Assembly (NCBI RefSeq): GCF_014195535.1
Contig: NZ_JACIBY010000011.1
Span: forward strand, 186,001-250,000
From: Runella defluvii
Lineage (GTDB): Bacteria > Bacteroidota > Bacteroidia > Cytophagales > Spirosomataceae
DNA length: 64,000 nucleotides
Direction: 5' to 3'
A model generated the notes under the pieces. That model was not told where the DNA came from, searched no databases, and was given only the letters and a program-made list of their open reading frames with translations. This document shows positions 2,872-62,397 of the stretch, piece by piece. Made by a program: the position numbers and the translations under genes. Positions within the stretch are counted from its first letter, which is position 1; each line of letters starts with the position of its first letter.

Positions 2872-2995
2872 AAGCGTCGCGTCGGTTTTGAAGCGTCGCG
2901 TCGGTTTTGAGAAACCGACGTCACGGGCGTGCTGGTGGTTTCTCAAGTGGTGCTGGTGGTTTCTCAAAACCACCACTGAGGTTTCTCAAAACCTC
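2872..2995. repeat. Cluster of TGAG/CTCA-loop hairpins with solitary arms
   Basis: Three perfect hairpins fill this gap: arm CGTCGGTTT with loop TGAG (2899-2920), arm TGGTGGTTT with loop CTCA (2954-2975), and arm GAGGTTT with loop CTCA (2978-2995). Each is preceded by, or close to, a lone copy of a left arm: bases 2872-2891 repeat as 2891-2910, and the second hairpin's left arm also appears alone near 2930-2947. None has a T-run behind it, so these are not ordinary terminators. They belong to the wider family described in the findings. Confidence 0.9.
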
Positions 2996-3012
2996 GCTTC
3001 AAGACACGCAAA

Positions 3013-3774
3013 TCATTTTTTCCAACACACATACACGTTCTCATCCGCCATAAGTCCGTAGCGTTTCCAGTCGATTTCTTGCACGTAAGCACTTACTTCT
3101 ACCCTAAAACCTGCGGCGGCAAGGCGGTCGGCATAGTCGCGGCCATAACGGCGAACGTGCTGGTGAGCACCCGCGATGCGTTTCCGTTCTTCGGGCGTCA
3201 GGTGCTGCGTTTCTACCGTTTTTTCCATCGAATTATTCACCGCGCCTTGAATAATGGCGTAGCCTTCGGGTTTGAGAACCCGATAAATCTCGCGCATTCC
3301 TTGGGCATCGTCAGGCACAAGTTCAAAGACGTGGTTACAAATCACGACGTCGAACGTGTTATCGGGAAATTGAATATCCGTCACCGACATAACGTGATCG
3401 GGCAACACCCCGATGGCGTCGATGTAGGTCGTCATCAAATCGGCTGTTTCGTACTGAAGTTGGGGGTGCTTACGGATTTGGTCGTGCAGGCATTTTTCGG
3501 GGGCAAAGTGCAGAATTCGTTTTTTCCCCGTAAAAAAATCGGTCTTATTTTTCAAATACAAATACACCAAACGGTGGCGTTCGAGCGACTTACAGGTATA
3601 ACAAAGGGCATTGGGGCGGTTGAAAGGCAAAAATTGGCTATACGTACTTCCACAAATGGGGCACTCGACGTCATTGCCTAATCCATATACTGCGGCTTGC
3701 GCCGAGGCTTGTAATGCTCTTAGTTGTTTGCGGCCTGCGGGGCCAATCACCGTTTTGAGAAATGCTTTCAACAC
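3013..3774 (-). CDS. SAM-dependent methyltransferase with N-terminal zinc ribbon
   Basis: About 253 residues. A likely zinc ribbon lies at the N-terminus (C39-P-I-C42 and C59-Y-T-C62 counted from the TTG at 3777). A class I methyltransferase fold follows, with FDVVICNHVFELVPDD as the conserved strand-4 region of the Methyltransf_11 group. The usual glycine-rich first motif is degenerate (ILHFAPEKCLHDQI). Proteins of this layout are often encoded near polysaccharide genes, but the substrate is unknown. The start is unclear: TTG at 3777 and GTG at 3774 are both in frame, and I chose GTG. Hairpin repeats lie on both sides of the gene. Confidence 0.8.
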   Translation of the reverse strand: MLKAFLKTVIGPAGRKQLRALQASAQAAVYGLGNDVECPICGSTYSQFLPFNRPNALCYTCKSLERHRLVYLYLKNKTDFFTGKKRILHFAPEKCLHDQIRKHPQLQYETADLMTTYIDAIGVLPDHVMSVTDIQFPDNTFDVVICNHVFELVPDDAQGMREIYRVLKPEGYAIIQGAVNNSMEKTVETQHLTPEERKRIAGAHQHVRRYGRDYADRLAAAGFRVEVSAYVQEIDWKRYGLMADENVYVCWKK

Positions 3775-3803
3775 CAATAGTGGGTTTTGTTTTTAAATGA
3801 ATA

Positions 3804-3896
3804 CGTCGGGGTATGAGTACCCCGACGCACTTTTTTGGTACCCCGATGAGTTTTTTGGTACCCCGATGAGTTTTTATACTACCCCGACGTACTTTT
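3804..3896. repeat. TGAG-loop hairpin followed by tandem solitary right arms
   Basis: A perfect hairpin (arm CGTCGGGGTA, loop TGAG, 3804-3827) is followed by three further copies of only its right arm, TACCCCGA, spaced 20-21 bases apart and joined by T-rich linkers. The whole array fills the gap between two minus-strand genes. Confidence 0.9.
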
Positions 3897-4823
3897 TTAC
3901 ACCGTAAAGCTATCCGACTCTAGGTAGGCTTTAATGAGTGCCTCTTCGCCTTCTTTGCCTGGCTTGGAGTTTCCGTGTTCCATTCCAAAAATGAAGTTTT
4001 GATTGTTGGCCTTCATTTTGGTGTAAATATGTTTGAACACGTTTTTATAGTTGATTTCGCCCGTCGTTGGTTCTTTACGTCCTGGGTTATCACCGATTTG
4101 GAAATACCCGATTTCGGACCAGCACCAGTCGATGTGCGGAATGATGTGCCCTTCGGTTTTCTGCATGTGATAAATATCAAACAAAATCTTGCACGCGGGA
4201 CTATTCACCCCACGGCAAATTTCGTAGGTTTGGTCAGAGGTTTGCAAAAACAAATTGGGACTATCGCTCAAGGGTTCCAACACCATCGTCAAACCGTGAG
4301 GAGCCAAAATATCTGCCCCTCGGCGAAGCGCATCAATTACGTGTCCCGTTTGAATTCCAATCGGAAGGTTACGTTCAAAATCGCCCGGTACGACCGTCAT
4401 CCACTTGGCATTGCAGCGTTTGGCGGTTTCTACGGCGCGCTTACAGCCATCCAAGAAAATATCAATGTGTGCTTGTTTGCCCGCCGCGAGGGTATTCTGA
4501 GAATTTCCTCCTTTGTCCACCACAAACACGCCCATGGTCATTCCCAACTTCGCCAATGTTTCGCCGATTTTGGTTTGTATTTCCACTGGGCGTCCCATCA
4601 TACCGTTGTCTTCCAAGGCCGTGAAGCCATTGTCGGCCATGAACTTAAGTTGGTCGATAAGGTCTTTACCCGCACTGTTTTGAAACATGCCAAAGTGAGG
4701 GGCATAGGCCAATTTAAAATTATTTTTTGCTTTAGGAGTCGTAGTATTAGCCGTGGCTACACCGCTCACTAGCGTAGCTGCCGAAGCCGAGACAGCAGTT
4801 TTTACAAAATCGCGACGAAACAT
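3897..4823 (-). CDS. Tat-exported hydroxypyruvate isomerase-like TIM barrel protein
   Basis: 308 residues from the ATG at 4823, chosen because it puts the Tat motif FRRDFVKT at residues 2-9, followed by a small-residue hydrophobic segment; a longer upstream reading adds 13 residues without family support. The mature part fits the hydroxypyruvate isomerase/AP_endonuc_2 family: LAYAPHFGMF, a strand with LEPLSDSPN (Glu likely a metal ligand), FDIYHMQKTEGH (Asp and His ligands) and a late FGMEHGNSKPG. Export to the periplasm suggests a role in sugar processing rather than glyoxylate metabolism proper. Substrate unknown. Confidence 0.85.
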   Translation of the reverse strand: MFRRDFVKTAVSASAATLVSGVATANTTTPKAKNNFKLAYAPHFGMFQNSAGKDLIDQLKFMADNGFTALEDNGMMGRPVEIQTKIGETLAKLGMTMGVFVVDKGGNSQNTLAAGKQAHIDIFLDGCKRAVETAKRCNAKWMTVVPGDFERNLPIGIQTGHVIDALRRGADILAPHGLTMVLEPLSDSPNLFLQTSDQTYEICRGVNSPACKILFDIYHMQKTEGHIIPHIDWCWSEIGYFQIGDNPGRKEPTTGEINYKNVFKHIYTKMKANNQNFIFGMEHGNSKPGKEGEEALIKAYLESDSFTV

Positions 4824-4883
4824 AAGTAGTTGTAGATTATAAGGTGCTGCCTCCAAAAGCAAAACAACGTTTTTTTCTAATCT

Positions 4884-5432
4884 TTACGAAACTTGGGGTT
4901 TCTTTAATTCTGCCTTGATTTCCGTCAAAATATCCCTAATCTCTCGTAATAATTCGGCATTGTCATTGGATGAAGTAGCAGCCGAGGGCGCATTTTTGGC
5001 CATGATTCTTTTTTCTCGCTGGCGTAAAATTAAGCTCCGTAATTCTTGGGCATTCACGATTCCAATCAGCTGCATATCGTGGGCTTGGCCTGCGCTCTGA
5101 CCTGCGGTTTCAAATTTTAAAATACAAAGATGAAAATACCGTAAAAGTGGCCCTTCTACAAAGGTTACATCTTGAATATTTTCCAACGGGATGGTTTTTT
5201 CGACTTGAACAAGAATCCCCTTTTTAAAGCGAATAACCGTTTCGGTAAGTTCACACTCTAGTTTATCATAATAGTGCTGGGCCCACCACTGGCCTATTCC
5301 TAAAAACCAAAACGGGATAAGTACAATCCCGAAAACAGTGGCCAACATGATAGAGGCCACATAAAGCATCATGTAAGGCTTTACCAGTTTGTTAAACTCG
5401 GATTTGAAAAGGACAGTATCGGATGTTTCCAT
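4884..5432 (-). CDS. PH domain-containing membrane protein (bPH2, YdbS-like)
   Basis: 182 residues. Two hydrophobic segments near residues 20-50 are followed by a bacterial PH-like domain (LECELTETVIRFKKGILVQ then TIPLENIQDVTFVEGPLLRY), the typical pattern of the YdbS/bPH2 family. The C-terminal 50 residues are charged, with a short predicted coiled coil (ELLREIRDILTEIKAELKK). No enzymatic role is expected; these proteins are thought to act at the membrane. It lies 30 bases downstream of the histidine kinase gene on the same strand, so the two may be co-transcribed. Confidence 0.8.
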   Translation of the reverse strand: METSDTVLFKSEFNKLVKPYMMLYVASIMLATVFGIVLIPFWFLGIGQWWAQHYYDKLECELTETVIRFKKGILVQVEKTIPLENIQDVTFVEGPLLRYFHLCILKFETAGQSAGQAHDMQLIGIVNAQELRSLILRQREKRIMAKNAPSAATSSNDNAELLREIRDILTEIKAELKKPQVS

Positions 5433-5462
5433 AAAATAGCGGCGGTTAAGGCTTAAAAACGA

Positions 5463-6845
5463 TTAAATATGCGGGAGTACTACTTCAAACGTGCTTCCTA
5501 CATCCAGTTGGCTCGTTACTTTTATGGTACCGCGGTGCATGTCCACAATCCTACGGCATACCGACAACCCAATGCCGTATCCTCGAAAAGTAGTAGCGTT
5601 TTTGGCACGATAAAGTGGTTCAAAAATCCGCTGGGTTTCGTTTTCAGGGATGCCAATTCCTCGGTCGGTGACTCGAATGTAGCAATTTTGTTCGTCAAAG
5701 CCGATTTTTACATCGGCGCGTTTGTCTGGCGAATATTTGCAGGCATTGTCCATCAAATTATTAAGTACCGTTTTGAGCAAAGGTGCATTTCCAAGGACGG
5801 TAATGTCCTGCTCATTTTCGGGAATATCTTCAAAATCAATGTGAATCTGGTAGTCGGTGCGGAGGCTTTGAAGTTCTTCTTGGGTTTGAAACACCAGCTC
5901 ATCCAAACGAATGGACTGAAAGCTCATCGTACGTTCTTCTTTTTTTTCCGATTGCGCCAGCTGTAACAGACTGTTAGTCAACTGAATCAGCCGTTGCGCA
6001 TCGTTCAGAAGCGAGTCCAAGACTTTTTGATACTCCTCGGGCGTACGTTCTTTTTCCAGCGCTATTTGAATTTCGGATTTTAAGCCCGCAAGTGGTGTAC
6101 GAAGTTCGTGGGAAGCATTGGACACAAAACTCCGTTGAAAATCGAAAGATTGTTCCAAACGCTGAAGCATTTGGTTGAAATTGATGGCCAATTGCGCCAA
6201 TTCGTCTTGGCGATTGCCTTCATTCAACTGTTTTCGCAAGTTATAAGCCGTGATGGTGCTAATCTCGCGGTTCATATCCGACAAGGGTTTTAGCGACTGT
6301 CCCGCAAAAATAAAGCCCAACACAATCGTGATGAGAATACCGAACAAAAAGCTATAAATCAACGAGTCTCGCAGGCGTTGAAGCTGGGTATTTCCCAGTT
6401 CATCCTCGGCCGAAGTCATCAGTACCAATTCTCCTTTTTCGGGGTGGGTGTACATCAAACCTGCCACCAACAGTTTCCCATTGGCGGTTTCGACGTATTT
6501 CTTTTTCCGAACAGATTTTAATAAATCGGCATTGTAATAATAATTTTCGGCGCTGTCGGGGTCGTAGCTGGCATACACGATTTTGTCTTCGTCGTTAAAC
6601 ATCAACACCTTCTCGCCGTAGAGTTTCGACAAGGTTTCTTTGTCGAGAATTTTCAGGATTTTCTTGTTGTTCGCCGCGATTTTCACCAGCAAGTCGGCCC
6701 GCGTTAGGGCGCGGTCGCACAAGTTTTTGTAGAACTCGTCTTTACGATTTTGCTCCGCCACGTAATAAAACGACACCGAAAATGTGGCCAAAATGGCGGC
6801 AATAATTACCGTAAATTGAAGGGCTATTTTGGTCCTGATTTTCAT
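5463..6845 (-). CDS. Two-component sensor histidine kinase (orphan)
   Basis: 460 residues. A transmembrane helix at residues 8-30 and another near 165-185 flank a periplasmic sensor region of about 130 residues. A HAMP linker follows, then the HisKA dimer with phospho-accepting His near residue 246 (SNASHELRTPL), and a HATPase domain with N box NNLMDNACKYSPDK, G1 VTDRGIGIP and G2 GYGIGLSVCRRI. All catalytic motifs are intact. No response regulator gene is adjacent; the only regulator in the window is 40 kb away (47592-48293) and a link is speculative. Signal unknown. Confidence 0.93.
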   Translation of the reverse strand: MKIRTKIALQFTVIIAAILATFSVSFYYVAEQNRKDEFYKNLCDRALTRADLLVKIAANNKKILKILDKETLSKLYGEKVLMFNDEDKIVYASYDPDSAENYYYNADLLKSVRKKKYVETANGKLLVAGLMYTHPEKGELVLMTSAEDELGNTQLQRLRDSLIYSFLFGILITIVLGFIFAGQSLKPLSDMNREISTITAYNLRKQLNEGNRQDELAQLAINFNQMLQRLEQSFDFQRSFVSNASHELRTPLAGLKSEIQIALEKERTPEEYQKVLDSLLNDAQRLIQLTNSLLQLAQSEKKEERTMSFQSIRLDELVFQTQEELQSLRTDYQIHIDFEDIPENEQDITVLGNAPLLKTVLNNLMDNACKYSPDKRADVKIGFDEQNCYIRVTDRGIGIPENETQRIFEPLYRAKNATTFRGYGIGLSVCRRIVDMHRGTIKVTSQLDVGSTFEVVLPHI

Positions 6846-6871
6846 TCGTTTATGCGATTTTATGCCTTTAT

Positions 6872-6925
6872 AACCTCTCGAAACTCTAATATAACCCCTC
6901 GAAAGTTCAAAACTTTCGAGGGGTT
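6872..6925. repeat. CAA-loop hairpin with a solitary left arm
   Basis: A perfect 15-bp stem (left arm AACCCCTCGAAAGTT) closes on the three-base loop CAA at 6893-6925. A degenerate copy of only the left arm, AACCTCTCGAAACT, sits just before it at 6872-6885. It lies between two minus-strand genes. No T-run follows in the direction of transcription, so plain termination is not obvious. Confidence 0.85.
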
Positions 6926-6928
6926 GCT

Positions 6929-7693
6929 TTACCCAAACAACGTCGTTACAACATCTTTGAGCTTCGAGAGTGTTTTTGCTCCTTTACCAGGCTCTACTAC
7001 CTGTTTTCCCCATTCGTACCACACGCCATCGCCTAGGTTAAAATACAATCCATTTCGCTTGGGTTTTTGACTTGAGGCATTGTCGGTGAGCCAGTTAGGC
7101 GCATATACCGTTTCCATCAACGAAGGCAGTTCTTGCCACGGATAAAAACGCAATGATGTTTTTCCATCCACCACGCGCTTGACTTGTGCCGTCCTTGTGC
7201 GAAACGACGCCGTCAACTGTGCTTCTCTGGTTCCTTGCGAAGTCGCGTCAATGACCTGCATTTCAAACGGGCGTTCTTTCTCCGATGTTTCATAAATCGC
7301 CTGAAGCAATTCTTGGGCAAAATAGAGCCAATCTTCGGTGTTTTTGGGTTGACCTTTTTTCGTCGTGTCCGTTTCCCACTCTAGGGTCAGAAAGTCCAAT
7401 TCTTCGTCTTGAAGCATACTGCCTCCCATCTGGGTTTTCTTGAGGACTTTTTCAAGCTCGTCAGACCACACTTTTTCAAGTGTTCCTTTCCACTGATAAT
7501 CATCATTATCGGTAAATCCTTCGGCTTCAATTTCATCGGCATCGAGTTCGTCGCGGTGGGTATATGTCAATTTTAAATCGACATTAATGGTTTGCTCAGT
7601 CGGAAGAATGCGCAATACGTAGCGATATGAGTAAGGCGGCGGAAGTTGCGCCGAAGTTTCAAATTGGATAGTCAGTTTACGAAAAGTTGCCAT
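6929..7693 (-). CDS. Conserved hypothetical protein
   Basis: 254 residues, no signal peptide or membrane helix, acidic in the first half (DELDADEIEAEGFTDNDDY). I do not recognise a domain. The mixture of alternating hydrophobic and charged residues and aromatic motifs (LRFYPWQELP, GLYFNLGDGVWYEWGK) suggests a soluble mostly-beta protein. The start codon directly follows the menE stop (7693/7694), so it is almost certainly the third gene of a Rieske-menE operon. A role near menaquinone synthesis is possible by location only. Confidence 0.75.
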   Translation of the reverse strand: MATFRKLTIQFETSAQLPPPYSYRYVLRILPTEQTINVDLKLTYTHRDELDADEIEAEGFTDNDDYQWKGTLEKVWSDELEKVLKKTQMGGSMLQDEELDFLTLEWETDTTKKGQPKNTEDWLYFAQELLQAIYETSEKERPFEMQVIDATSQGTREAQLTASFRTRTAQVKRVVDGKTSLRFYPWQELPSLMETVYAPNWLTDNASSQKPKRNGLYFNLGDGVWYEWGKQVVEPGKGAKTLSKLKDVVTTLFG

Positions 7694-8740
7694 TTAGCGT
7701 ATATTTTCCTCAAAGGTACGGCGCTTATCTACTTTGCCCGTGGGTGTTTCTACAAATTTTTTAACAAAATACACCTTTTTAGGAAGTTCGTAGGTCAAAA
7801 GCTCAGGTATTAATCTCGTTTGAAGTAGTTCGCTATCAAGCTTTTTTTCACTTTCTACTACTAAAATCAGCTTTTGTCCTAAGCGTTCGTCGGGTTCCGA
7901 CCACGCAAAAAACCGCGAAGCGATCAGCCCCGTTTTTTCAACGGCACGTTCTACTTTCTCCAGCTGAATTTTGACTCCTCCCGAATTAATAATGTTATCA
8001 GCGCGCCCCACTATGATGAACTTTCGGGATTCTAAAAACTCCACCACATCGTTGGTTTGAATCCATTGGTGGTTGGTTACTGCCCCGCACAGACGAAGGC
8101 AGCCGCGTTCGTCGGTAGCGGCTTTAACTCCTTCCAACAGCCAATAACTATCCGTTGCCTCGGCTCCGTTTAGCCTTCGTAGCGCCACATGCGATACCGT
8201 TTCGGTCATGCCATAGGTACTAAATACAGGCACGCTAAGCCGCTGAATACCTTCGAGCAATTGTTCAGAAACAGGAGCTCCTCCCACAATGATAACGCCC
8301 AAGGTATTTAGAACCGAGGCTTGTACTGCATCCAACATTGCTTGCAATTGGAGCGGCACTACCGCCACAAAATCTATTGCTAAATCATGGGGCAGCGCAG
8401 CAAACGGCTGCGAGGAAGGCGCGACGATGTGCATCGTTAGCCCCAATTCCATTCCACGCACGAGCATCATCGTTCCTGCAATGTAACCCACATTGAGGCA
8501 CACCAACGCTTGCTGCCCCGCCCGCAAATCCAACGCACGCTGCGTAACACGGGCACTGGCTTGCATTTGGGCGCGCGTCAAGGTAATAGGCTTAGGAGTG
8601 CCCGTCGAACCCGAGGTATGCAGCACAAAAGTTTCTTGCCCCGAGGCGTACAAACGACAAAACTCCCACGCCTGTCGAAAATAAGCATCCTCGGGCGCGG
8701 GAGTTTCAAAAATATGTTGGGGTACTAAAGTATAAAACAT
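7694..8740 (-). CDS. menE: o-Succinylbenzoate-CoA ligase (short Bacteroidota type)
   Basis: 348 residues of the acyl-adenylate-forming family. The P-loop signature is FVLHTSGSTGTPKPITLT; the adenine/ATP region is FSTYGMTETVSHVALRR; a C-terminal GRADNIINSGGVKIQLEKVE hinge and a late PTGKVDKR lysine (the adenylation Lys) are all present. The short length without a large N-terminal lobe is common for MenE in Bacteroidota. It would activate o-succinylbenzoate with CoA in menaquinone synthesis. The presence of menA at 13.9 kb supports this, though no other men genes lie beside it. A different acyl-CoA ligase is the alternative. Confidence 0.8.
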   Translation of the reverse strand: MFYTLVPQHIFETPAPEDAYFRQAWEFCRLYASGQETFVLHTSGSTGTPKPITLTRAQMQASARVTQRALDLRAGQQALVCLNVGYIAGTMMLVRGMELGLTMHIVAPSSQPFAALPHDLAIDFVAVVPLQLQAMLDAVQASVLNTLGVIIVGGAPVSEQLLEGIQRLSVPVFSTYGMTETVSHVALRRLNGAEATDSYWLLEGVKAATDERGCLRLCGAVTNHQWIQTNDVVEFLESRKFIIVGRADNIINSGGVKIQLEKVERAVEKTGLIASRFFAWSEPDERLGQKLILVVESEKKLDSELLQTRLIPELLTYELPKKVYFVKKFVETPTGKVDKRRTFEENIR

Positions 8741-8743
8741 AGA

Positions 8744-9190
8744 CTAAGGGTAAATACGAATATCGCCCGTCGATGGGTCGTACGAGGTTTTGTAGCGCGT
8801 CAACGGCTTAGTGGCTGGCCCCGTTTGCACTTCTCCCTCGCTCGAAAACACGGAGCCGTGGTTGGGACACAGAAAAGTATTGTTTGAGACAATGTAGTTG
8901 ACCGCCGTTCCTTCGTGCGTACAGGCTTGCGAAACCGCGATAAACCCACCCTGCTGCGTACGTGCAATGATTACTCCGTTGGTTCTTACAAAACCTCCTG
9001 CATTGCGCAAGGCCGTAAATGTACCATTATTGACGTTCACAGAAAAATCAGTGGGAGTCGTCGGATTGGGATCGGGACTGGCGCCTGTATTACATCCCGA
9101 CAAACACTGTTGAAGTACGATAGCTCCAAAACTCACCCCCACTAGGCGAAAAAACTCTTTTCGGTCAATCGTCGTTGCTTCCGTTTCCAT
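8744..9190 (-). CDS. Rieske [2Fe-2S] lipoprotein/Tat-like protein
   Basis: 148 residues. An N-terminal hydrophobic segment ends in LQQCLSGC, which could be a lipobox, giving a protein anchored outside the inner membrane. The Rieske cluster ligands are complete: CTHEGT (Cys and His) and CPNHGS (Cys and His), 19 residues apart, followed by a GEVQTGPATKPLTRY loop as in arsenite oxidase or cytochrome b6f-like Rieske domains. Partner unknown; its stop is 3 bases before the menE start, so co-transcription suggests a link to quinone-dependent electron transfer. Confidence 0.9.
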   Translation of the reverse strand: METEATTIDRKEFFRLVGVSFGAIVLQQCLSGCNTGASPDPNPTTPTDFSVNVNNGTFTALRNAGGFVRTNGVIIARTQQGGFIAVSQACTHEGTAVNYIVSNNTFLCPNHGSVFSSEGEVQTGPATKPLTRYKTSYDPSTGDIRIYP

Positions 9191-9308
9191 AGCGTTATTG
9201 ATATTTTTTTGTAGTTTTCAATGTTATTTTTAATAATCGAACTTAGCGTTTAAAACGCTCGCTTTTGTGGCTCTTTAAAAACGTAACTGAAACAAAAAGA
9301 TTGTAACT

Positions 9309-10919: not shown

Positions 10920-10933
10920 AACCGTTCAATGTC

Positions 10934-14865: not shown

Positions 14866-14899
14866 TTTTGCATCTCTCTTCACAATTTCCTAATTTTGC
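14866..14899 (+). promoter_or_regulatory. Bacteroidota promoter for ffs
   Basis: A TTTG-like -33 element in the run TTTTTGC (about 14864-14870) is followed about 20 bases later by TAATTTTGC at 14891-14899, matching the TAnnTTTG -7 box. It lies directly upstream of the SRP RNA. Confidence 0.75.
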
Positions 14900-14900
14900 A

Positions 14901-15004
14901 TCGGCAAATCGGAACTACCAGCTCCCATTGAATCCCCCAGGTCTTGACCGAAGCAAGGGTAAGTGGTTGTAGCGGTGAGATTCTCGGTTTGCCATTTTTT
15001 GTTT
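14901..15004 (+). ncRNA. ffs: Signal recognition particle RNA (4.5S, small bacterial type)
   Basis: The RNA ends pair perfectly: GGCAAATCG (14903-14911) with CGGTTTGCC (14985-14993). Inside, CCCCCAGGTC is followed by GAAGCAAGGG, with the same spacing as the conserved SRP domain IV sequence GGTC...GAAGCA of other bacteria. Flanking pairs such as CCATT/AGTGG extend the stem. A T-run (ATTTTTTGTTTTT) ends the RNA just at the stop of the convergent dehydrogenase gene. A promoter lies at the right distance. The apical loop (between GGTC and GAAGC) reads TTGACC, not the usual GGAA-type tetraloop. It works with Ffh to target membrane proteins. Confidence 0.88.
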
Positions 15005-23407: not shown

Positions 23408-23448
23408 GAGGATGTGAGCATCCTCAGGGTTGGTTTTGAGAAACCAAC
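23408..23448. repeat. Two adjacent TGAG-loop hairpins with different stems
   Basis: Arm GAGGATG with loop TGAG (23408-23425) is followed four bases later by arm GTTGGTTT with loop TGAG (23429-23448). The stems share no sequence but the loops are identical. Both lie between two minus-strand genes. Confidence 0.9.
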
Positions 23449-23480
23449 TGCACTTGTTATTCACTCTATTACTTAATTAC

Positions 23481-29498: not shown

Positions 29499-29722
29499 CT
29501 CAGGGTATGAGTACCCTGAGGCACGATGCGAGTACCCTGAGGCACGACCCGTGCGGAGGGATACTCATATCCCGACAACTAAGCAAACTTGTCAGTCCTC
29601 AGGGTATGAGTACCCTGAGGCACGACCCGTGAGGAGGGATACTCATATCCCGACAACTAAGCAAACTTGTCAGTCCTCAGGGTATGAGTACCCTGAGACA
29701 CGACGCAAGTACCCTGAGGCAC
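29499..29722. repeat. 78-bp tandem array of TGAG and CTCA hairpins with solitary arms
   Basis: Three hairpins with arm CTCAGGGTA and loop TGAG (29499-29520, 29597-29620, 29676-29697) alternate with two hairpins of arm GGGATA and loop CTCA (29558-29573, 29636-29651). The last two full units repeat with a 78-base period. Two lone right arms (TACCCTGAGGCAC at about 29533 and 29710) flank the array. The reading frame through it happens to stay open into the next gene, which I consider accidental. Confidence 0.92.
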
Positions 29723-32594: not shown

Positions 32595-32653
32595 TAGACT
32601 TTCCAAGTTTCAAAAACTTGGAAAGTCTAACTGTCTTTGAAACTTGGAATGTC
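32595..32653. repeat. CAA-loop hairpin with a solitary degenerate right arm
   Basis: A perfect 16-bp stem (left arm TAGACTTTCCAAGTTT, loop CAA) spans 32595-32629. A second copy of the right arm alone, AAACTTGGAATGTC with one mismatch, follows at about 32640-32653 and overlaps the end of the next gene. Confidence 0.88.
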
Positions 32654-53515: not shown

Positions 53516-53530
53516 TTGCCGATATATCAA

Positions 53531-54847: not shown

Positions 54848-54879
54848 GTGTAGGCAACTAACCATTAGCGCCTATTTTC

Positions 54880-54914: not shown

Positions 54915-54988
54915 GTGTCGTTCATTCCTAAAACGCTGAAAAGTATTTTTAGGGAGGTTTGTGCCTTTTTACTGAAAATGAAACCCTT

Positions 54989-55912
54989 ATGGCTACCTCT
55001 CGTCGTCGATTCATCAAAACGCTTGCTGCTACCAGCGCTATTGTAGCGTCCAAACCTTCTTGGGCCACAACTTCAGCTGCACCCTTCATTTCGTGTAATC
55101 AATATTCGTGGTTTACCTTTTATGAACGCGAAAAACGCAGTTGGGGCGCAAACCTCGACGCCTCGCTTGCTGAATACGTAAAATCAGGATTGAAAGCCTT
55201 TGAACCCAGTTTTTATTCCACCAACGACGTCAAAACGCTGGCACCTCTCTTAAAAAAATACCAATTGGCCCTTCCTTCGGCTTACATCGGAAGTATTTTG
55301 CACGAAGACGCCGAAAGTCAAAAAACCATCGAAACGGCCATTGCCATTGCCAAAGAAGCCAAGCCGCTGGGTTTATCGATTTTAGTTACGAGTCCCAATC
55401 CCATTCGTTGGGGAGGGGCCGAAATCAAAAGCGATGAACAGCTAATCAAACAAGCCAAAAATTTAGACCTGCTAGGTTCTGAGTTAAAAAAGCAAGGCAT
55501 TACCCTCGCCTATCATACCCACGACGCGGAGTTTAAGGCAGGCGCGCGGGAGTTTCACCACATGCTACAAAATACGCATCCGCAAAATGTCAGCCTGTGC
55601 TTGGACGCACATTGGATCTACCGAGGAGCTGGCAACTCCCAAGTTGCACTGTTCGATATTGTAAAAATGTACGGAAAACGAGTCGTAGAACTTCACATAC
55701 GACAGTCGGTGGGGCAAATTTGGGGAGAAACCTTCAGCGAAGGCGATATCGATTACCCACGACTTGTCCGCGAATTGAAAACCATGAACGTCAAACCCTT
55801 ACTCGTATTGGAACAATGCTTAGAGCCACAATCTCCCAACACGCTCAACGCCATTCAAGCCCATCAACAAGACCTTGCTTACGCTCAAAAAGTTTTTAAA
55901 GGCTGGGTGTAA
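54989..55912 (+). CDS. Tat-exported sugar phosphate isomerase/epimerase-like TIM barrel protein
   Basis: 307 residues from the ATG at 54989, which gives the Tat motif SRRRFIKTLA; a longer reading to 54959 lacks it. The barrel has FISCNQYSWFTFYEREKRSW, ITLAYHTHDAEFKAGAREF, LCLDAHWIYRGAGN (Asp/His metal ligands), VVELHIRQS and LLVLEQCLEPQ. Periplasmic role in sugar metabolism likely, substrate unknown. It is the third such exported barrel in the window. Confidence 0.87.
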   Translation: MATSRRRFIKTLAATSAIVASKPSWATTSAAPFISCNQYSWFTFYEREKRSWGANLDASLAEYVKSGLKAFEPSFYSTNDVKTLAPLLKKYQLALPSAYIGSILHEDAESQKTIETAIAIAKEAKPLGLSILVTSPNPIRWGGAEIKSDEQLIKQAKNLDLLGSELKKQGITLAYHTHDAEFKAGAREFHHMLQNTHPQNVSLCLDAHWIYRGAGNSQVALFDIVKMYGKRVVELHIRQSVGQIWGETFSEGDIDYPRLVRELKTMNVKPLLVLEQCLEPQSPNTLNAIQAHQQDLAYAQKVFKGWV

Positions 55913-55967
55913 ACAAAGTACAAATTGTATATTTGTTATAGTGACATACTATTTGAAGTTAGGTACA

Positions 55968-56423
55968 ATGACATTTGACCAAAACGGACACCTATTCCCC
56001 TACGAGGTGATTGAGACCACTCTAGAAATTTTTGAGGATGTATTTGTAAAAAGTTTTCCAACTTCCTCTACACGCTCAGTAATTTTTACAGAATATTTAA
56101 CCTATCTCAATAGGTTACAAGAAATTATAGGTAACGAGTTCTATCAATGGATTGACGGGAGTTTTACCACTCAAAAATTAAACCCTCGTGATATTGACAT
56201 AGTGACATTTATAGATGCTTCTTTATTTGATGCTAACGAACCGTTGTTAAGAGATTGGAACAAACAAAGTTTGATAGATGCTTACTTTGTTCGGGTCTTT
56301 CCCAAAGAACACAAGCAACGCGTATTTTACGAGTCTGATTATTTACGCTGGTTGCATTTATTTGGTCGAAGCCGTGAAAAGAAATCAAAAGGAATTATTC
56401 ATTTACAACTATTAGGACAATGA
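55968..56423 (+). CDS. DUF6932 family protein with nucleotidyltransferase-like motif
   Basis: 151 residues from the ATG at 55968; the longer reading covers the preceding gene's end. GHLFPYEVIETTLEIFEDVF opens the protein, and WIDGSFTTQKLNPRDIDIV is a GS-x-D-x-D-like nucleotidyltransferase core (GSF...DID). The sequence looks more AT-rich than its neighbours. Its stop overlaps the next gene's start by four bases. The pairing of a minimal nucleotidyltransferase-like protein with a small helical partner resembles toxin-antitoxin layouts, but no function is shown. Confidence 0.78.
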   Translation: MTFDQNGHLFPYEVIETTLEIFEDVFVKSFPTSSTRSVIFTEYLTYLNRLQEIIGNEFYQWIDGSFTTQKLNPRDIDIVTFIDASLFDANEPLLRDWNKQSLIDAYFVRVFPKEHKQRVFYESDYLRWLHLFGRSREKKSKGIIHLQLLGQ

Positions 56424-56647
56424 CTGCAATAGGTAATTATGAAGAATGGGCAATAAGGGTATCACGCCTATTAGAGCTGATTGCTATGGACAATGATGCC
56501 ATAAAAATGCACCAAGAAGGTAATAGCCCTGCATTAATCGTTGAGCAGTACCAACGTTTAAGAAACGACCATTTGGAAGAATTGCGAGAATTATTAAAAG
56601 ATTCAGGCATGACTATCCAACTATTAAATATAAGTAATGCTGCGTAA
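56420..56647 (+). CDS. Small helical partner of the DUF6932 protein
   Basis: 75 residues, predicted mostly alpha-helical (WAIRVSRLLELIAMDNDAIK, HQEGNSPALIVEQYQRLRND). It starts inside the stop of the DUF6932 gene (ATGA), which indicates translational coupling. No family recognised. An antitoxin or regulatory-subunit role is a guess from the arrangement. Confidence 0.7.
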   Translation: MTAIGNYEEWAIRVSRLLELIAMDNDAIKMHQEGNSPALIVEQYQRLRNDHLEELRELLKDSGMTIQLLNISNAA

Positions 56648-56669
56648 ACTCGTATGCACGGCACACAAA

Positions 56670-56699
56670 AGAGCCAGAGAAGATATCTTCTCTGGCTCT
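56670..56699 (-). terminator. Perfect 30-bp palindrome, terminator of the OmpA gene
   Basis: AGAGCCAGAGAAGAT and its exact complement follow each other without a loop. On the minus strand it is followed by TTTTGTG, so it should end the OmpA transcript; on the plus strand there is no T-run. Confidence 0.8.
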
Positions 56700-56814
56700 C
56701 CGTCTATTCCTAAACCCTTTACCTTATGAAAAAACAATTACTATTACTTTATTCTTGACGAAATTTCTGATTTTTGGCCATAGCCATAAAAAAACTTTGA
56801 GCGCTTTCAGCTAC

Positions 56815-57513
56815 TTAGTTCTGAACTACACTACCTGATTCTACGGCTTTCCGAACCTCCTCTTTCAAACGTTGGTTAGCCACAACAACGACTTCAACAC
56901 GCTGATTTTGACGACGGCCATCCAGCGTTTTATTTGAGGCTTTAGGCGTCGTTTCGCCAAAGCCCTCGGTTACAATTCGCAATTGGGGAACCCCATGTGC
57001 TTGCAAAAAATCCGCCAAAGCTTCCGCGCGTTTCTCAGAAAGCGCTTGGTTTACTTTCAAACTTCCTTGAGAATCGGTATGTCCCGCTACCAATATTTCA
57101 GTGTCTTTAAAATCTTGCAATACCTGCGCAAGTTTCTTTACGAACGGTTGTGGGTCGTTCGATAACACATACGAGCCTTCAGGATATAAAATAGCGGATT
57201 GAAACGTCATTTTAATGCCTTCTCCCAAGCGTTCAATTTGGGCGATGCCTCCTAGCTGTTGGCGTAGCTGGATGGTTTGCTGTTCCATGTATTGTTCAAT
57301 ACGAGTACCCGGCAAACCACCCACTACTGAAGCGCTTATCGCGTAATTGGCAGGATCTTTCGATTTACTTTGCCCATGTTTGGCAGGTGAAACCGTTTTC
57401 CCCTTAGTTCTTGATAGAAAGGATGTGGATGTGCAGTCGGAAAGCCCTAGAATCAATGAACAACTCATCGATACGAGCAAGAGACTTTTAACTGATTTTT
57501 TTATTGTGTTCAT
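56815..57513 (-). CDS. OmpA family lipoprotein
   Basis: 232 residues from the ATG at 57513, which starts the lipoprotein signal (LILGLSDC, Cys near residue 27). The OmpA domain at the C-terminus has ILVAGHTDSQGSLKVNQALS, EKRAEALADFLQAHGV and FGETTPKASNKTLDGRRQNQ, the peptidoglycan-binding Asp and Arg positions. The N-terminal half is similar to a glycine-zipper-free YiaD-like spacer. It likely tethers the outer membrane to peptidoglycan. Confidence 0.92.
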   Translation of the reverse strand: MNTIKKSVKSLLLVSMSCSLILGLSDCTSTSFLSRTKGKTVSPAKHGQSKSKDPANYAISASVVGGLPGTRIEQYMEQQTIQLRQQLGGIAQIERLGEGIKMTFQSAILYPEGSYVLSNDPQPFVKKLAQVLQDFKDTEILVAGHTDSQGSLKVNQALSEKRAEALADFLQAHGVPQLRIVTEGFGETTPKASNKTLDGRRQNQRVEVVVVANQRLKEEVRKAVESGSVVQN

Positions 57514-57697
57514 GGCTGACAAAAAACTTTGTTAGTAAAAAAGGAGCTTTTGAATTTTCAATGCTCAAAAGAGCCTTATTGATAAACTCCGTGTTATTGT
57601 CATTGCTGTTAATCTGACATTAGTTGTAAAATACTTATGCCACGGTAGTTTTAGGATTTCAGTAGGGAGATATGGGGAATTTGGGGAATTTTTGGGC

Positions 57698-57729
57698 AAA
57701 AAAATCCCCACTTAATTGGTAAGTGGGGA
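57698..57729 (-). terminator. Terminator of the aldo/keto reductase gene
   Basis: Arms TCCCCACTTA (57705-57714) and TAAGTGGGGA (57720-57729) around ATTGG; on the minus strand a run of seven T follows. Confidence 0.93.
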
Positions 57730-57752
57730 GGTTATCAAACGAAATTTGGCTT

Positions 57753-58739
57753 TTACCACAAATGATGCACCTGTGGTTTTATGTATTTAGCGTAGATTTC
57801 ATTCACAGATTGTAATTGTTGTTGGGTCAAATCAGGAATCGTGAGCGCTTCCAAATTGGCGGTTGCTTGCGTAGGATTAGAAGCTCCTGGGATAATGGTG
57901 CTCACTGCCGAAAAGCCCAAAATCCAGCGTAAAGCCACTGGAGCAAGGTTTTCGTACGAAGGGAATACCGCTTTAAGTTCTTCTACTGCGGCCAATCCTG
58001 TTTCATAATCAATGCCCGAAAACGTTTCTCCTTTGTCAAAGTGTTCTCCGTTACGATTAAAAAAGCGGTGGTCGCCTGCCGTGAAACTCGACGACTTCGA
58101 AAATTTACCCGTCAATAACCCACTGGCCAACGGCACACGCACAATGACTCCGATGTTTTTCTTTTGGGCTTGCTCAAAAAACAATTCCGACGGACGCTGA
58201 CGGAACATATTGAAGATGATTTGAACCGTGGTAACGTTTTCGTATTCAATGCCTTTCAATGCCTCTTCTACTTTCTCAACGCTAATACCCAAATTCAAGA
58301 TTTTACCTTCTTGTTTTAAGCGGTCAAACAACTCAAAAATTTCGGGGCGATAATACACCTCCGTGGGTGGACAATGGAGTTGAATCAAATCCAGGGTCTC
58401 TAACCCCATATTTGTGAGGCTATCTTCTACAAACTTACGCAATACCGCAGGCTGGTAGGCTTCACTAACATGCGGGCTCAGTTGACGTCCGCATTTGGTG
58501 GCAACATAAATACGTTCTGAGCGGCTTTTCACAAATTTACCCACGGCTTTTTCACTTTCGCCCGCACCATAGACATCGGCCGTATCAATAAAATTGATGC
58601 CCGAATCAACGGCCGCGTGAAGAATTTTCTCCGCATTTTCGTGGCTAAAATCGTCCCCCCATTTTCCGCCTACCTGCCACGTTCCTAGGCTGATTTCCGA
58701 AATCTCAAATCCAGTTTTTCCTAATTTTCTGTAATTCAT
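57753..58739 (-). CDS. Aldo/keto reductase
   Basis: 328 residues from the ATG at 58739 (a TTG two codons upstream also in frame). The catalytic tetrad is visible: Asp and Tyr in DTADVYGAGESEKAVG, Lys in YVATKCGR and His in LIQLHCPPTEV. NADPH-binding end: SVSTIIPGASNPTQATANL. Substrate unknown. The upstream gap is a long hairpin array. Confidence 0.93.
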   Translation of the reverse strand: MNYRKLGKTGFEISEISLGTWQVGGKWGDDFSHENAEKILHAAVDSGINFIDTADVYGAGESEKAVGKFVKSRSERIYVATKCGRQLSPHVSEAYQPAVLRKFVEDSLTNMGLETLDLIQLHCPPTEVYYRPEIFELFDRLKQEGKILNLGISVEKVEEALKGIEYENVTTVQIIFNMFRQRPSELFFEQAQKKNIGVIVRVPLASGLLTGKFSKSSSFTAGDHRFFNRNGEHFDKGETFSGIDYETGLAAVEELKAVFPSYENLAPVALRWILGFSAVSTIIPGASNPTQATANLEALTIPDLTQQQLQSVNEIYAKYIKPQVHHLW

Positions 58740-58748
58740 TATCAATGT

Positions 58749-58964
58749 TGTTTTTGGGTTACAGTCAGACGGTTGTACTCAGTCAGACGGTGGTCTAGTA
58801 CGCAGTCAGACGATAGTCAGACTGCACCACCAAATAGCTACGGTCTGACTGTCGTCTGACCTTTTTGTTTTTGGGTCACAGTCAGGCGATAATCAGGCGG
58901 CGGTGACAGTCAGACGGTAGTCAGACTGCACTATCAAATGGTTACGGTCTGACTACCGTCTGAC
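58749..58964. repeat. Array of 18-bp stem-loops with a conserved 20-base loop
   Basis: Two hairpins: arms GTCAGACGATAGTCAGAC / GTCTGACTGTCGTCTGAC (58805-58822, 58843-58860, one G-T pair) and GTCAGACGGTAGTCAGAC with its exact complement (58909-58926, 58947-58964). Both loops follow TGCACYAYCAAATRGYTACG. Solitary left arms (GTCAGACGG at 58764 and 58781; GTCAGGCG variants near 58880) precede them. Stem differences between copies keep pairing. The array lies between two minus-strand genes. Confidence 0.93.
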
Positions 58965-58965
58965 C

Positions 58966-59559
58966 TTATTCATTCCACGCATTCATGCCTGGAGTTAGCG
59001 GCATACATGCGATGTATTTTCCTGGAATTGGGTCATAGCCCAGCACTTCTTTCCCGATTTTTTGAGAGGTAAAATACCCAAGAAGGGTTAATTCTTTCAC
59101 TCTTCTAAAAAACGGCGTGGGCGAAGGGGGAGCCAAACGAATGCCCCATACTGATGGCGGTAGCTTCTCCGCTTCCACATCCAGTTTGGTCAAAAACTCC
59201 TTTCGTTGTTCAGGCGTACATTCCACAAACGACTTCCCGTAGGCTTTTTCACAATCTTCTTCCAATTTTTCTAAACCACCCACAAAATCCTTTTGTTCTT
59301 CTTCCGAAAGCAAATCTTTCAACATTTTATCAATAAACTGCGGCACACCTAGCTCTTTTGCTCCTGGAGTTTTGGTTTTGGGCAGAATTGTTTCTGCAAT
59401 TTCAGCAATGCTTGCCGCTTGGTTATTGGTCAAAAAAGTAGGTTTCCAGTCTAATTTTGCTTCTTGCGAGCAGGCCATAAACGCCTCGCTCAACGTAGCC
59501 GTGGAAACAGCATAGCCCAAAAACAGGGCCGACGATTTTATAATGTCTCTGCGGTTCAT
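58966..59559 (-). CDS. Gluconate 2-dehydrogenase subunit 3 family protein
   Basis: 197 residues. A Tat-like start (NRRDIIKSSALFLGYAVS) precedes the Gluconate_2-dh3 domain: IAEIAETILPKTKTPGAKEL, GVPQFIDKMLKDLLSEEEQK, FFRRVKELTLLGYFTSQKIG. It is the small partner of the GMC oxidoreductase encoded just upstream (11-base gap) and should carry it through the Tat system. Confidence 0.92.
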   Translation of the reverse strand: MNRRDIIKSSALFLGYAVSTATLSEAFMACSQEAKLDWKPTFLTNNQAASIAEIAETILPKTKTPGAKELGVPQFIDKMLKDLLSEEEQKDFVGGLEKLEEDCEKAYGKSFVECTPEQRKEFLTKLDVEAEKLPPSVWGIRLAPPSPTPFFRRVKELTLLGYFTSQKIGKEVLGYDPIPGKYIACMPLTPGMNAWNE

Positions 59560-59570
59560 CTGATTGGGGA

Positions 59571-61277
59571 TTAGAGATTTTTACGATTGAGTTCATTGAC
59601 GGCAAAATCGGCCGCACGCGCCGTGAGCGCCATGTAGGTGATGGACGGATTGACACAACTCGATGAAGTCATGCAGGCTCCATCGGTTACAAACACATTT
59701 GGAACAGCATGAAGTTGGCTATTGGCATTGACCACCGACGTTTTCGGGTCGCGGCCCATACGCGCCGTTCCCATTTCGTGAACGCCTACGCCAATTCCCC
59801 CTGAATAATCAAACGGCGTCACATTTTTCAACCCCGCATTTTCGAGCATTTCTACGGCATCTTCTTTCATTTGCTTACGCATGGCCATTTCGTTGGTCTT
59901 AAACTCGGCATCTATGCTCAACGTTGGCAAGCCCCATTTGTCTTTTGCGTCTTGGTTGAGGGTTACTTTGTTTTCGTGGTAAGGTAAACATTCTCCAAAA
60001 CCTACCAACGACATCCCCCAGCTACTTGGGGCAAACAAGCTATCTTTAAACTCAGCGCCTACCCCACCTCCACTAATGCCTCCGCCCCAGTTGCCTCGTC
60101 CACCAGCACCTTGATAGTCATACCCCCGAATAAAATCTTTCATTTTGGAAGCTTCATCGAGATTGCGGTAACGTGGAATAAAAATCCCGTTGGGGCGACG
60201 GCCTTTGTAATATTGGTCTTCAAAACCATCGTAACTGCCCATTGCTCCTACTCGATAGTGGTGATCCATCAAGTTATGTCCCAATTCGCCACTATCATTT
60301 CCTAGGCCGTTGGGGAAACGACTTGACGTAGAATTCAACAAAATTTGGGTGGTTCCGAGCGTCGAAGCGTTCAAGAAGATGATTCGCGCGTAAAACTCAA
60401 TTTCCTCTTTGGTTTCTGAATCAATCACTTTTACACCTTTTGCTTTGCCCAATTTCTCATCATAAATAATCGACGCTACTTGCGAATTTGGGCGAAGCGT
60501 TAATTTACCTGTGGCATCGGCCGCAGGCAGCGTTACGGCATTGCTGCTAAAATACGCCCCAAAAGGGCAGCCTCTCGAACAACGGTTACGATTTTGGCAT
60601 TGCCCCCGACCGTTGATAGGTTCGGTCAAGTGCGCTACGCGTCCAATGGTCAGGTGGCGACCTTTGTACGTTTTTTCAATGCTTCCTTTGACGTGTTTTT
60701 CGAGGCAATTTAGCTCCATCGGAGGCAAAAAATGCCCGTCGGGCAAGTGCGACAATCCTAGCTTTTCACCACTAATCCCGACATATTTCTCCACGTAGGT
60801 GTACCAGCTTTCAAGATCTTTGTATCGAATCGGCCAATCTACCCCGATGCTTTGTTTTGCATTAGCTTCAAAATCAAGGTCGCTCCAGCGGTAGCATTGT
60901 TTGCCCCAAAGCAACGAACGCCCTCCTACCTGATTTCCCCGAATCCAGTCAAAACGCTTTACTTCGGTGTAAGGGCTATCGAGGTCGTTGTTATAAAAAT
61001 GTTTGTTGGATTCATCAATAAAGCCACTCCGAACCTGAATATGGTATTTCTTTTTGTCTTCATCGGTCAGCTTACCACGGTGTTCAAAATCCCAGTGGTC
61101 GTTATTCATCGTAGGGTAGTCTTCAACGTGACGTACCATCCGTCCTCTTTCCAAGACAAGCGTCTGCAACCCTTTCTCACACAACTCTTTAGCAGCCCAT
61201 CCGCCACTAATTCCTGACCCAATCACGATGGCATCGTAGGTATGGGTTTTGTTCACTTTCAAATTAAAACTTGGCAT
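59571..61277 (-). CDS. GMC family oxidoreductase, large subunit of a periplasmic dehydrogenase
   Basis: 568 residues. FAD site VIGSGISGGWAAKELCEKG then VLERG; Cys-rich CQNRNRCSRGCPFGAYFSS as in gluconate 2-dehydrogenase and glucoside 3-dehydrogenase; C-terminal VGVHEMGTARMGRDPKTSVV with the active-site His, and NVFVTDGACMTSSSCVNPSI. It oxidises a sugar or sugar acid hydroxyl. No signal peptide of its own; export by hitch-hiking on the subunit 3 protein is expected. Confidence 0.93.
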   Translation of the reverse strand: MPSFNLKVNKTHTYDAIVIGSGISGGWAAKELCEKGLQTLVLERGRMVRHVEDYPTMNNDHWDFEHRGKLTDEDKKKYHIQVRSGFIDESNKHFYNNDLDSPYTEVKRFDWIRGNQVGGRSLLWGKQCYRWSDLDFEANAKQSIGVDWPIRYKDLESWYTYVEKYVGISGEKLGLSHLPDGHFLPPMELNCLEKHVKGSIEKTYKGRHLTIGRVAHLTEPINGRGQCQNRNRCSRGCPFGAYFSSNAVTLPAADATGKLTLRPNSQVASIIYDEKLGKAKGVKVIDSETKEEIEFYARIIFLNASTLGTTQILLNSTSSRFPNGLGNDSGELGHNLMDHHYRVGAMGSYDGFEDQYYKGRRPNGIFIPRYRNLDEASKMKDFIRGYDYQGAGGRGNWGGGISGGGVGAEFKDSLFAPSSWGMSLVGFGECLPYHENKVTLNQDAKDKWGLPTLSIDAEFKTNEMAMRKQMKEDAVEMLENAGLKNVTPFDYSGGIGVGVHEMGTARMGRDPKTSVVNANSQLHAVPNVFVTDGACMTSSSCVNPSITYMALTARAADFAVNELNRKNL

Positions 61278-61465
61278 AGGTTAATTAGATATTAGAATAG
61301 TGAAATATGTTTGCGAAGATAGGTATTTAACTGTCTATACGACAATTAAAATGATTTAATAGCAAGCAAAAATGAAGGGAGAACTATTTTGGAAAATTAT
61401 ATGTATCTACATATATTTATAACATCCTAAGCTACTAGGCTCAAGGTGGTGTAAAATAGCGTGAT

Positions 61466-62338
61466 ATGAAAAGAAATGAATTTCTAAAAAGTGTTCTGGG
61501 AGGAACTATTGCAATGGACTCATTAAAAGACCTTTATAAATGGAACGAACAATTGGCAACCAAAGACTCGCTCATGCCCCTGCTTTTTGTGGGTCATGGC
61601 TCGCCCATGAATGGAATCGAAGAAAATGAGTTTAGCGGCGGCTGGAAACGGCTTGGCAAAGACATACCCGTCCCAACGGCCGTCTTGGTAGTGTCGGCGC
61701 ACTGGTACACCCGTGGCACCAAAATAACGGCCATGAATGCCCCGCGTACCATTCACGATTTTGGTGGGTTTCCGAGGGCTTTGTTTGAAGTTCAGTACCC
61801 TGCGCCAGGTAGCCCTGCGTTGGCCAACGAAACAGCATCGCTCGTTAAAAAAGCGCAAGTCGGCCTTGACCATGAATGGGGCTTAGACCACGGAACGTGG
61901 ACGGTCGTACGTCACATGTATCCTAAAGCCAACATTCCAGTATTACAATTGAGCATTGATTACACCCAACCACCTCGTTATCATTATGAGCTGGCGAAAG
62001 AATTAGCAGCTTTACGCAAAAAAGGGGTGCTAATTATTGGAAGCGGAAACATGGTTCATAACCTTGGTATCCTCAATTGGCAATACACCGAACGAGGTTA
62101 CGATTGGGCCATTGAAATGAATACCAAATTCAAAAAACTAATTGTCGAGAATGACCACGCTCCGCTGATTAATTACGAAAAATTGGGCCAAGCAACGTTG
62201 TTGTCGATTCCATCCCCCGACCACTACTTACCATTGTTATATATTTTGGGCTTAAAAGAAGAAAAAGAGCCTGTCAGTTTCTTTAATGATAAAACTGTTT
62301 TGGGCTCTATTTCAATGACTTCTGTGAAGGTTGGATAA
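61466..62338 (+). CDS. ygiD: 4,5-DOPA extradiol dioxygenase-like (YgiD/LigB family)
   Basis: 290 residues. Metal ligands: LFVGHGSPMN, VVSAHWYTRG and LDHGTWTVVRHMYP; the catalytic-His region IIGSGNMVHNLGILNW and IPSPDHYLPLLYILG are also intact. Opens catechol-type rings. The N-terminal 30 residues, before the core, are a Bacteroidota-type extension with a weak hydrophobic stretch. Its stop abuts a pair of hairpins. Confidence 0.92.
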   Translation: MKRNEFLKSVLGGTIAMDSLKDLYKWNEQLATKDSLMPLLFVGHGSPMNGIEENEFSGGWKRLGKDIPVPTAVLVVSAHWYTRGTKITAMNAPRTIHDFGGFPRALFEVQYPAPGSPALANETASLVKKAQVGLDHEWGLDHGTWTVVRHMYPKANIPVLQLSIDYTQPPRYHYELAKELAALRKKGVLIIGSGNMVHNLGILNWQYTERGYDWAIEMNTKFKKLIVENDHAPLINYEKLGQATLLSIPSPDHYLPLLYILGLKEEKEPVSFFNDKTVLGSISMTSVKVG

Positions 62339-62397
62339 AGAGTGCGGTTATGAGTAACCGCACTCTCGTGCCTCTGGTTGTGAGCAACCAGAGGCAC
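62339..62397. repeat. Two long TGAG-loop hairpins filling the gap between convergent genes
   Basis: Arm AGAGTGCGGTTA with loop TGAG (62339-62366, 12-bp stem) and arm GTGCCTCTGGTTG with loop TGAG (62368-62397, 13-bp stem). Both stems are perfect and unrelated in their outer parts. They begin at the ygiD stop and end at the dehydrogenase stop. No T-run follows either one. Confidence 0.95.

Follow-up and report, generated by a model that had tools for sequence, protein, structure and literature searches.

The window, a 64,000-nucleotide stretch of the Runella defluvii genome (RefSeq GCF_014195535.1, contig NZ_JACIBY010000011.1, positions 186,001 to 250,000), contains short, perfectly paired hairpins closed by the four-base loop TGAG, or CTCA on the opposite strand. 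These hairpins belong to a family tied by position, copy number and phylogeny to a REP-associated tyrosine transposase (RAYT; REP, repetitive extragenic palindrome) coded elsewhere in the genome. The thirteen hairpins at five loci listed in a preliminary description all exist, eleven with stems of 7–13 bp and two, at 29.56 and 29.64 kb, with stems of 6 bp. Ten are complete, carrying a trinucleotide foot, CAC, at a distance of 10 nt from the loop.

Seven complete units lie on the plus strand: 2899–2924 (hairpin 2899–2920, foot 2922–2924), 3804–3830 (3804–3827, 3828–3830), 23429–23453 (23429–23448, 23451–23453), 29499–29524 (29499–29520, 29522–29524), 29597–29623 (29597–29620, 29621–29623), 29676–29701 (29676–29697, 29699–29701) and 62368–62397, whose 13-bp stem includes the CAC (62395–62397) 10 nt from the loop. 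The other three lie on the minus strand, their feet appearing as GTG on the plus strand: 2950–2975 (hairpin 2954–2975, foot 2950–2952) and the two 6-bp stems, 29551–29573 (29558–29573, 29551–29553) and 29629–29651 (29636–29651, 29629–29631). Three hairpins are footless, comprising a degenerate neighbour at 2978–2995 (minus strand) that keeps the loop-adjacent tip of the family and has no foot at 10 nt, a hairpin with the deviating tip GGATG at 23408–23425 (plus strand), and a 12-bp hairpin with the family tip at 62339–62366 (plus strand), which together with 62368–62397 occupies the gap between two convergent genes. Two further TGAG hairpins, at 3266–3283 inside a methyltransferase gene and at 56098–56117, are without a CAC foot and look like chance occurrences; no hairpin of at least 6 bp is present at the former position in two comparison genomes, G075 and G095.

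The loop distinguishes the family from other hairpins. If only perfectly paired hairpins with four-base loops and at least 7 bp of stem are counted, TGAG/CTCA closes 13 of the window's 16. Our main sample adds to the window 1.16 Mb of contig C1 from this genome (G000), where the loop closes 52 of 144 such hairpins. The runners-up in C1 are CTCC (6), AAAA (6) and CTTA (5); among 3-, 5- and 6-nt loops, no comparable class was found. Selection by loop (perfect 4-nt-loop hairpins of the main sample, stem of at least 6 bp) reveals CAC at a loop distance of precisely 10 nt in 71 of 96 TGAG, 8 of 8 GGAG and 7 of 10 TAAG hairpins. The same position holds CAC in just 8 of 644 hairpins with other loops, close to the expected 1 in 64. 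The preliminary description had held that only the loop-adjacent part is alike; the tip is indeed conserved, but the fixed foot had been overlooked, and the idea that the tip alone is conserved was abandoned once the foot was detected.

A second selection by tip only, made without demanding pairing so as not to select for it, comprises 99 sites in the main sample. With a 5-bp tip, CAC occupies one fixed position in 62 of 83 sites, other offsets yielding at most 5 and the mirror side 4 of 83, and in G075 the same position is occupied in 45 of 59 sites. At sites with the shorter GGTA tip, CAC is located one base further from the tip (14 of 14); because CAC shifts with tip length, the conserved quantity is the 10-nt distance from loop to foot. 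Read on the foot-first strand, the unit is composed of 5'-GTG, a 10-nt arm, the loop CTCA and a second 10-nt arm. Half-units retaining only the 3' half and the foot number 18 in G000 and 10 in G075, and the reversed motif gives none.

Loop and foot are fixed at a strict spacing of 10 nt, with the outer stem between them free in sequence yet paired. The inner 4–5 bp by the loop are nearly fixed (the five loop-adjacent bases of footed units are GGTTG, GGTTT, GGGTA, GGTTA or GGATA), while the outer 5 bp vary among loci and are usually paired. Counted outward from the tip, consecutive positions are paired in 92, 69, 60, 63 and 35% of the tip-only sites, against column-expected values of 23–36%, and pairing beyond the fifth outer position is at chance level. 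The earlier statement that the stems are always paired therefore stands insofar as outer pairs exceed chance, its absolute form being partly an artefact of picking perfect hairpins. The 99 sites encompass 82 distinct 27-mers, the best of which covers 7 sites at no more than 2 mismatches.

Comparison with G075 shows how the stems change. This comparison used G075 alone and excluded contig C4, segments longer than 480 bp and pairs differing by more than 120 bp; of 57 comparable hairpins, 10 with gaps were set aside, leaving 47 gap-free alignments. Tip pairs are unchanged in 231 of 235 cases. Among the 235 outer pairs, 158 are identical and paired and 59 lack pairing in G000 as well as in G075; 18 have changed with a G-T pair or with loss of pairing in one genome, and none has changed on both sides and remained paired. 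Stem bases differ at 4.1% (39/940), compared with 9.3% (238/2560) in nearby sequence. Since compensatory double changes are absent and stems diverge less than nearby bases, the stems are under constraint and are not being rebuilt, and their diversity predates the split between G000 and G075. The constraint on a folded structure envisaged in the preliminary description, with the loop as the likely recognition element, is supported. One hairpin (62339–62366) underwent a loop inversion between conserved arms, reading TGAG at window 62341–62364 here and CTCA in G075; in G095, the hairpin next to 62339–62366 has changed and carries a CTCA loop. Arrays also gain and lose tandem pieces between genomes. 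The 3804–3827 hairpin is followed, at window 3830–3890, by tandem partial units in which only its 3' half and CAC, or a CAC relic, are left, and similar partial units (3' half with CAC or a relic) lie near position 893250 of C1; the copy number of such units differs between G000 and G075.

The hairpins are concentrated at gene ends. Based on crude open reading frame (ORF) calls, the 40 C1 loci comprise 18 in convergent gaps, 15 in co-directional gaps and 7 in called ORFs, with none in divergent gaps, where 8.2 are expected by length; thus 33 of 40 are intergenic, 18 of these 33 lying between convergent genes. With a 150-amino-acid ORF limit, the counts become 18 convergent, 18 co-directional, 3 in ORFs and 1 divergent. 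Of the sites in co-directional gaps, 13 carry TGAG on the strand of the genes and 19 on the other strand. TTTT occurs within 12 nt on either side of 8 of 71 hairpins, the genome rate being 9.3% per 12-nt stretch, which agrees with the earlier remark that T-runs are absent. At the Rfam gathering threshold, no family matches the hairpins, and the sole match in the window is a small SRP RNA of the Bacteroidales type (RF04183, 83 bits) at 14895–14998.

The search for a REP-associated Y1 transposase suggested in the preliminary description succeeded. Of seven Y1_Tnp matches in the genome, one is the 196-residue product (P0001) of a minus-strand gene at C4:567258–567848, which is embedded in a 3.2-kb stretch holding 27 perfect 4-nt-loop hairpins, 26 with TGAG/CTCA and one with TAAG loops. 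P0001 is recognised by NCBIfam NF047646, which models REP-associated tyrosine transposases (101.3 bits, cut-off 80), and fails the IS200 transposase model (NF033573; 18.6 bits, cut-off 55). A profile built from 13 such RAYT proteins matches the TnpArep chain 4er8 with an E value of 1.9e-9. Relative to the motifs of subclass 2.6 / group 5 (NH[LIV]H, WQ, YIH[QN]NP and SS), NHIH and SS are present, YMHNNP is close, and WD replaces WQ. A protein search of the genome revealed one close gene and a distant second match; the second RAYT-like gene, P0002 (locus L007), has no 4-nt-loop hairpin with a stem of at least 7 bp in its 3.2 kb. P0001 has no match among phage records. The genome harbours 530 sites of the strict tip pattern GGTTNTGAGNAACC, in keeping with a many-copy extragenic palindrome, and the gene of its RAYT stands among these very hairpins, as expected of a REP in the broad sense. 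The hairpins beside the gene lack GT[AG]G and recur elsewhere in the genome, a trait of subclass 2.6 / group 5.

Copy number follows the state of the transposase gene. Genome-wide counts rely on GGTTNTGAGNAACC, for which the reversed-pattern control gives 0–3 sites per genome; the pattern GGNNTGAGNNCC was dropped as too loose (110 matches, compared with 96 for its reversed control) and GGTWTGAGWACC as weak. Within the genus, sites number 530, 448 and 438 in the three genomes whose gene is intact, 37, 68 and 59 in three in which it is cut short or contains a stop, and 62, 37, 29, 0, 1, 0 and 0 in the seven without an orthologue. Across 200 genomes of the family, P0001 is matched at some level in 104 and below 1e-30, our definition of an orthologue, in 12. 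At least 10 sites are present in 11 of the 12 genomes with an orthologue and in 10 of the 188 without; we place no reliance on a P value for this link because the genomes are related.

The association between RAYT and hairpins recurs in G075, G095, five genomes of another genus (g5) and Bernardetia. In g5, the RAYTs (50–58% identity) at L062–L065 are flanked by same-tip hairpins with TGAG or TAAG loops, and L061 has one such hairpin. The stem of this L061 hairpin is 25 bp long and a stem at L065 26 bp, both perfect and closed by CTTA/TGAG loops; they lie directly up- or downstream of the RAYT and far exceed the usual 10 bp. Bernardetia belongs to another family; there, a plasmid record codes for an enzyme 47% identical to P0001, and all seven hairpins in the gaps on its flanks (at least 6 bp, loops of 3–5 nt) have TGAG/CTCA loops on stems unlike those of R. 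defluvii, three 10-bp stems carrying GTG or CAC at 10 nt. Of 80 named RAYT loci, the majority from Bacteroidota, 64 have at least one hairpin (at least 7 bp, loop of 3–5 nt) nearby, a count made with no random control, and many of these hairpins have exactly 10-bp stems.

Hairpin type changes with RAYT type across 56 loci. Input to the RAYT tree was 105 of 110 loci (L063 and L066–L069 left out), of which 88 were used; the 17 others carried a stop in the strand read, including unturned minus-strand loci such as L058, the R. defluvii RAYT, which is represented by its 93–95% identical relatives L059 and L060. On the 56 of 88 tree loci with a repeated tip, the tip trinucleotide tracks the tree with 23 changes, compared with at least 35 in 300 shuffles. 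Within-locus sharing of the trinucleotide at a given distance in these 56 loci is 0.63 at 10 nt, 0.57 at 9 nt and 0.45 at 11 nt, and between loci 0.11; the peak at 10 nt is just modest because the stems and arrays are themselves similar. In the tree, a planctomycete RAYT from Candidatus Brocadia sp. WS118 (L204) clusters with the TGAG clade (SH-aLRT 86), and L082, from the family of R. defluvii, adjoins the Emticicia locus L224. The placement of L204 and its shared GTG foot hint at transfer between phyla.

We propose, with a probability of roughly 0.8, that the hairpins are REP elements of the RAYT, or TnpA_REP, coded elsewhere in the genome, of the Bacteroidota subclass 2.6 / group 5 type. 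The HUH-tyrosine enzyme would bind the unit as folded single-stranded DNA, reading the loop and tip together with the GTG foot, which may guide the cut, and the stem would serve it merely as a paired ruler. Because the sequence of the stem would be tolerated, stems could drift apart among loci while both ends remain fixed. This transposase or an ancestor of it would have spread the copies, which would now be mostly static and retained at gene ends.

Several observations weigh against this proposal. Binding, cutting and movement by the RAYT are predictions. The canonical GT[AG]G tetranucleotide is absent, the fixed element being GTG, with C as the next base outward in 45% and GTAG in none, and 25 of 96 TGAG hairpins are footless. 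Four shorter hairpins of the seven in Bernardetia are likewise footless, and one of the three with a foot has its loop reversed relative to it. The foot and loop can also part company: next to a 51%-identical gene with a stop (L066), CAC at 10 nt is kept with loops CCC and ACG, and at the Brocadia locus GTG feet at 10 nt accompany GAAA/TTTC loops. The foot is therefore conserved more widely than the loop, and the wider clade can do without TGAG. The genome of Mucilaginibacter that holds L277 has 15 sites matching [GC]CC, four bases, TTGGTG, four bases and CACCAA, a search pattern that itself imposed the [GC]CC foot and the tip. All have a GCC foot and a TTGT loop, and 12 of 15 are fully paired by hand count; their stems vary at the outermost base alone (G, C or T), so that stems as diverse as those of R. 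defluvii are not the rule everywhere. What the enzyme group has in common may be loop, foot and about 10 bp, with large stem diversity marked in the TGAG group. A strict dependence of the hairpins on the gene is also hard to reconcile with the 10 orthologue-less genomes that have at least 10 tip sites (85 and 108 in two cases), unless the gene was lost or missed there.

The diversity of stems could alternatively stem from fold-back copying, in which synthesis by a polymerase starts from the GGTTTTGAGAAACC core as primer and takes the flank as template, giving each locus its own perfect stem; a palindrome-restoring process of this kind had been raised in the preliminary description. It would account for stems that hardly ever recur from one locus to the next (the 99 sites yield 82 distinct 27-mers), for the 25–26 bp same-tip stems beside the g5 RAYTs, for the orthologue loop inversion and for the tandem 3' half-units. 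The orthologue comparison argues against it, with none of 235 outer pairs showing a compensatory double change, 59 unpaired in both genomes and stems diverging less (4.1%) than their flanks (9.3%), and pairing mostly stops at the foot rather than extending beyond it. We consider fold-back copying very unlikely, and for want of compensatory changes we do not favour it as the chief origin of stem diversity. Placement invites a different explanation, RNA hairpins at transcript 3' ends acting as terminators or stabilisers, because 18 of the 33 intergenic C1 loci are convergent and none, or one with the 150-residue limit, is divergent. An intrinsic terminator, a hairpin followed by a T-run, is rejected by the lack of T-run enrichment on either side (8 of 71), and the asymmetric unit shows no strand preference (13 and 19 sites), which also disfavours the earlier suggestion of an RNA read by its loop as a strand-specific signal. 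No Rfam family matches, and the CAC foot and the RAYT link are left unaccounted for. This explanation has a marginally slimmer chance still, although a secondary RNA role may exist beside REP identity.

The least probable account regards the hairpins as sites for some host DNA-binding protein, the array around the RAYT being a coincidence or the enzyme a bystander. Only one array lies beside the gene in this genome, and orthologue-less genomes can carry dozens of copies. The recurrence of the association in G075, G095, the five g5 genomes and Bernardetia opposes a coincidence, as does hairpin type following RAYT type across the 56 loci.

REPs and RAYTs are well known, and the existence of group 5 REPs had been reported, although the literature consulted characterises them only as atypical; the concrete rule of loop, foot and spacing appears to be new. 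Subclass 2.6 TnpA_REP genes of Bacteroidetes are described as flanked by "atypical secondary structures" (Quentin et al. 2018, PMC6006769), and the present system agrees with that account in hairpins both by the gene and elsewhere in the genome and in the absence of GT[AG]G, and in part in the motifs of the enzyme. The consulted passages of its main text present the structures as weaker and do not give their anatomy, whereas a GTG foot, 10-nt spacing, fixed loop and variable outer stem are measured here. The sections consulted of a study of group 3 (subclass 2.5) enzymes provide the closest biochemical parallel (Corneloup et al. 2021, PMC8266576): these enzymes require the loop bases and largely tolerate differences in stem identity, loop reversal abolished binding for one enzyme, single loop changes abolished or strongly lowered cutting, and a stem mismatch impaired cutting, exchange of stem bases having little or moderate effect. 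The three systems tested there did not include group 5. Group 3 REPs of Stenotrophomonas and Marinomonas share short perfect palindromes and the importance of foot and loop; they differ in their GTAG foot and enzyme group, and stems here differ between nearly all loci. Units of the E. coli type (REP / BIME, group 2) are likewise extragenic and RAYT-linked with a foot 5' of the hairpin, but possess a bulged stem and a GTAG foot (PMC8266576) in place of the perfect short stems and GTG seen here. CGTC-tagged REPs, which occur in some Bacteroidetes with 8–9 bp stems and 4–5 nt loops, are reported in the consulted text to have no associated transposase (Di Nocera et al. 2013, PMC3733652); in contrast, the present units have a GTG foot and a RAYT, and CGTC is found in some of them only as part of the stem, not as an unpaired tag. 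The same source reports gene-end placement for other REPs. Compared with the 82 distinct 27-mers at 99 sites here, a REP of P. fluorescens SBW25 is listed with 387 identical copies in the consulted part of PMC2817692. In the RAYT, REP and REPIN literature, we found no title or abstract opening describing this anatomy; supplementary tables, which lay outside the search, may hold related sequences.

Whether the rule extends to the enzyme branch is finely balanced: a branch of Bacteroidota RAYTs might read a two-point code on folded single-stranded DNA, loop plus tip and a trinucleotide foot exactly 10 nt off, and be blind to stem sequence. Under such a code, REP populations nearly without a consensus would exist, missed by repeat finders and findable by structure rather than sequence. 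A different transposase would go with a different loop and foot but with an unaltered 10-nt ruler, as with GTG and TGAG here and GCC and TTGT in the one Mucilaginibacter genome, and recognition would be testable with few oligonucleotides. The family would then represent mobile DNA whose ends are constant across copies and whose stem is particular to almost every locus.

Other features were noted beside these hairpins. The G095 counterpart of the 23.43–23.48 kb hairpin locus is accompanied by an insertion of ~1.8 kb (G095 C1:306286–308117) that contains, as judged by eye, two minus-strand genes, one resembling an AAA/ABC-type ATPase; the two are perhaps a defence pair. The window also contains hairpins of 15–16 bp with a TTCAAAA-type loop and dissimilar stems at 6893–6925 and 32595–32629, a possible second hairpin class. 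In C1, CAA is the most frequent 3-nt loop, closing 8 of 18 hairpins with stems of at least 9 bp.

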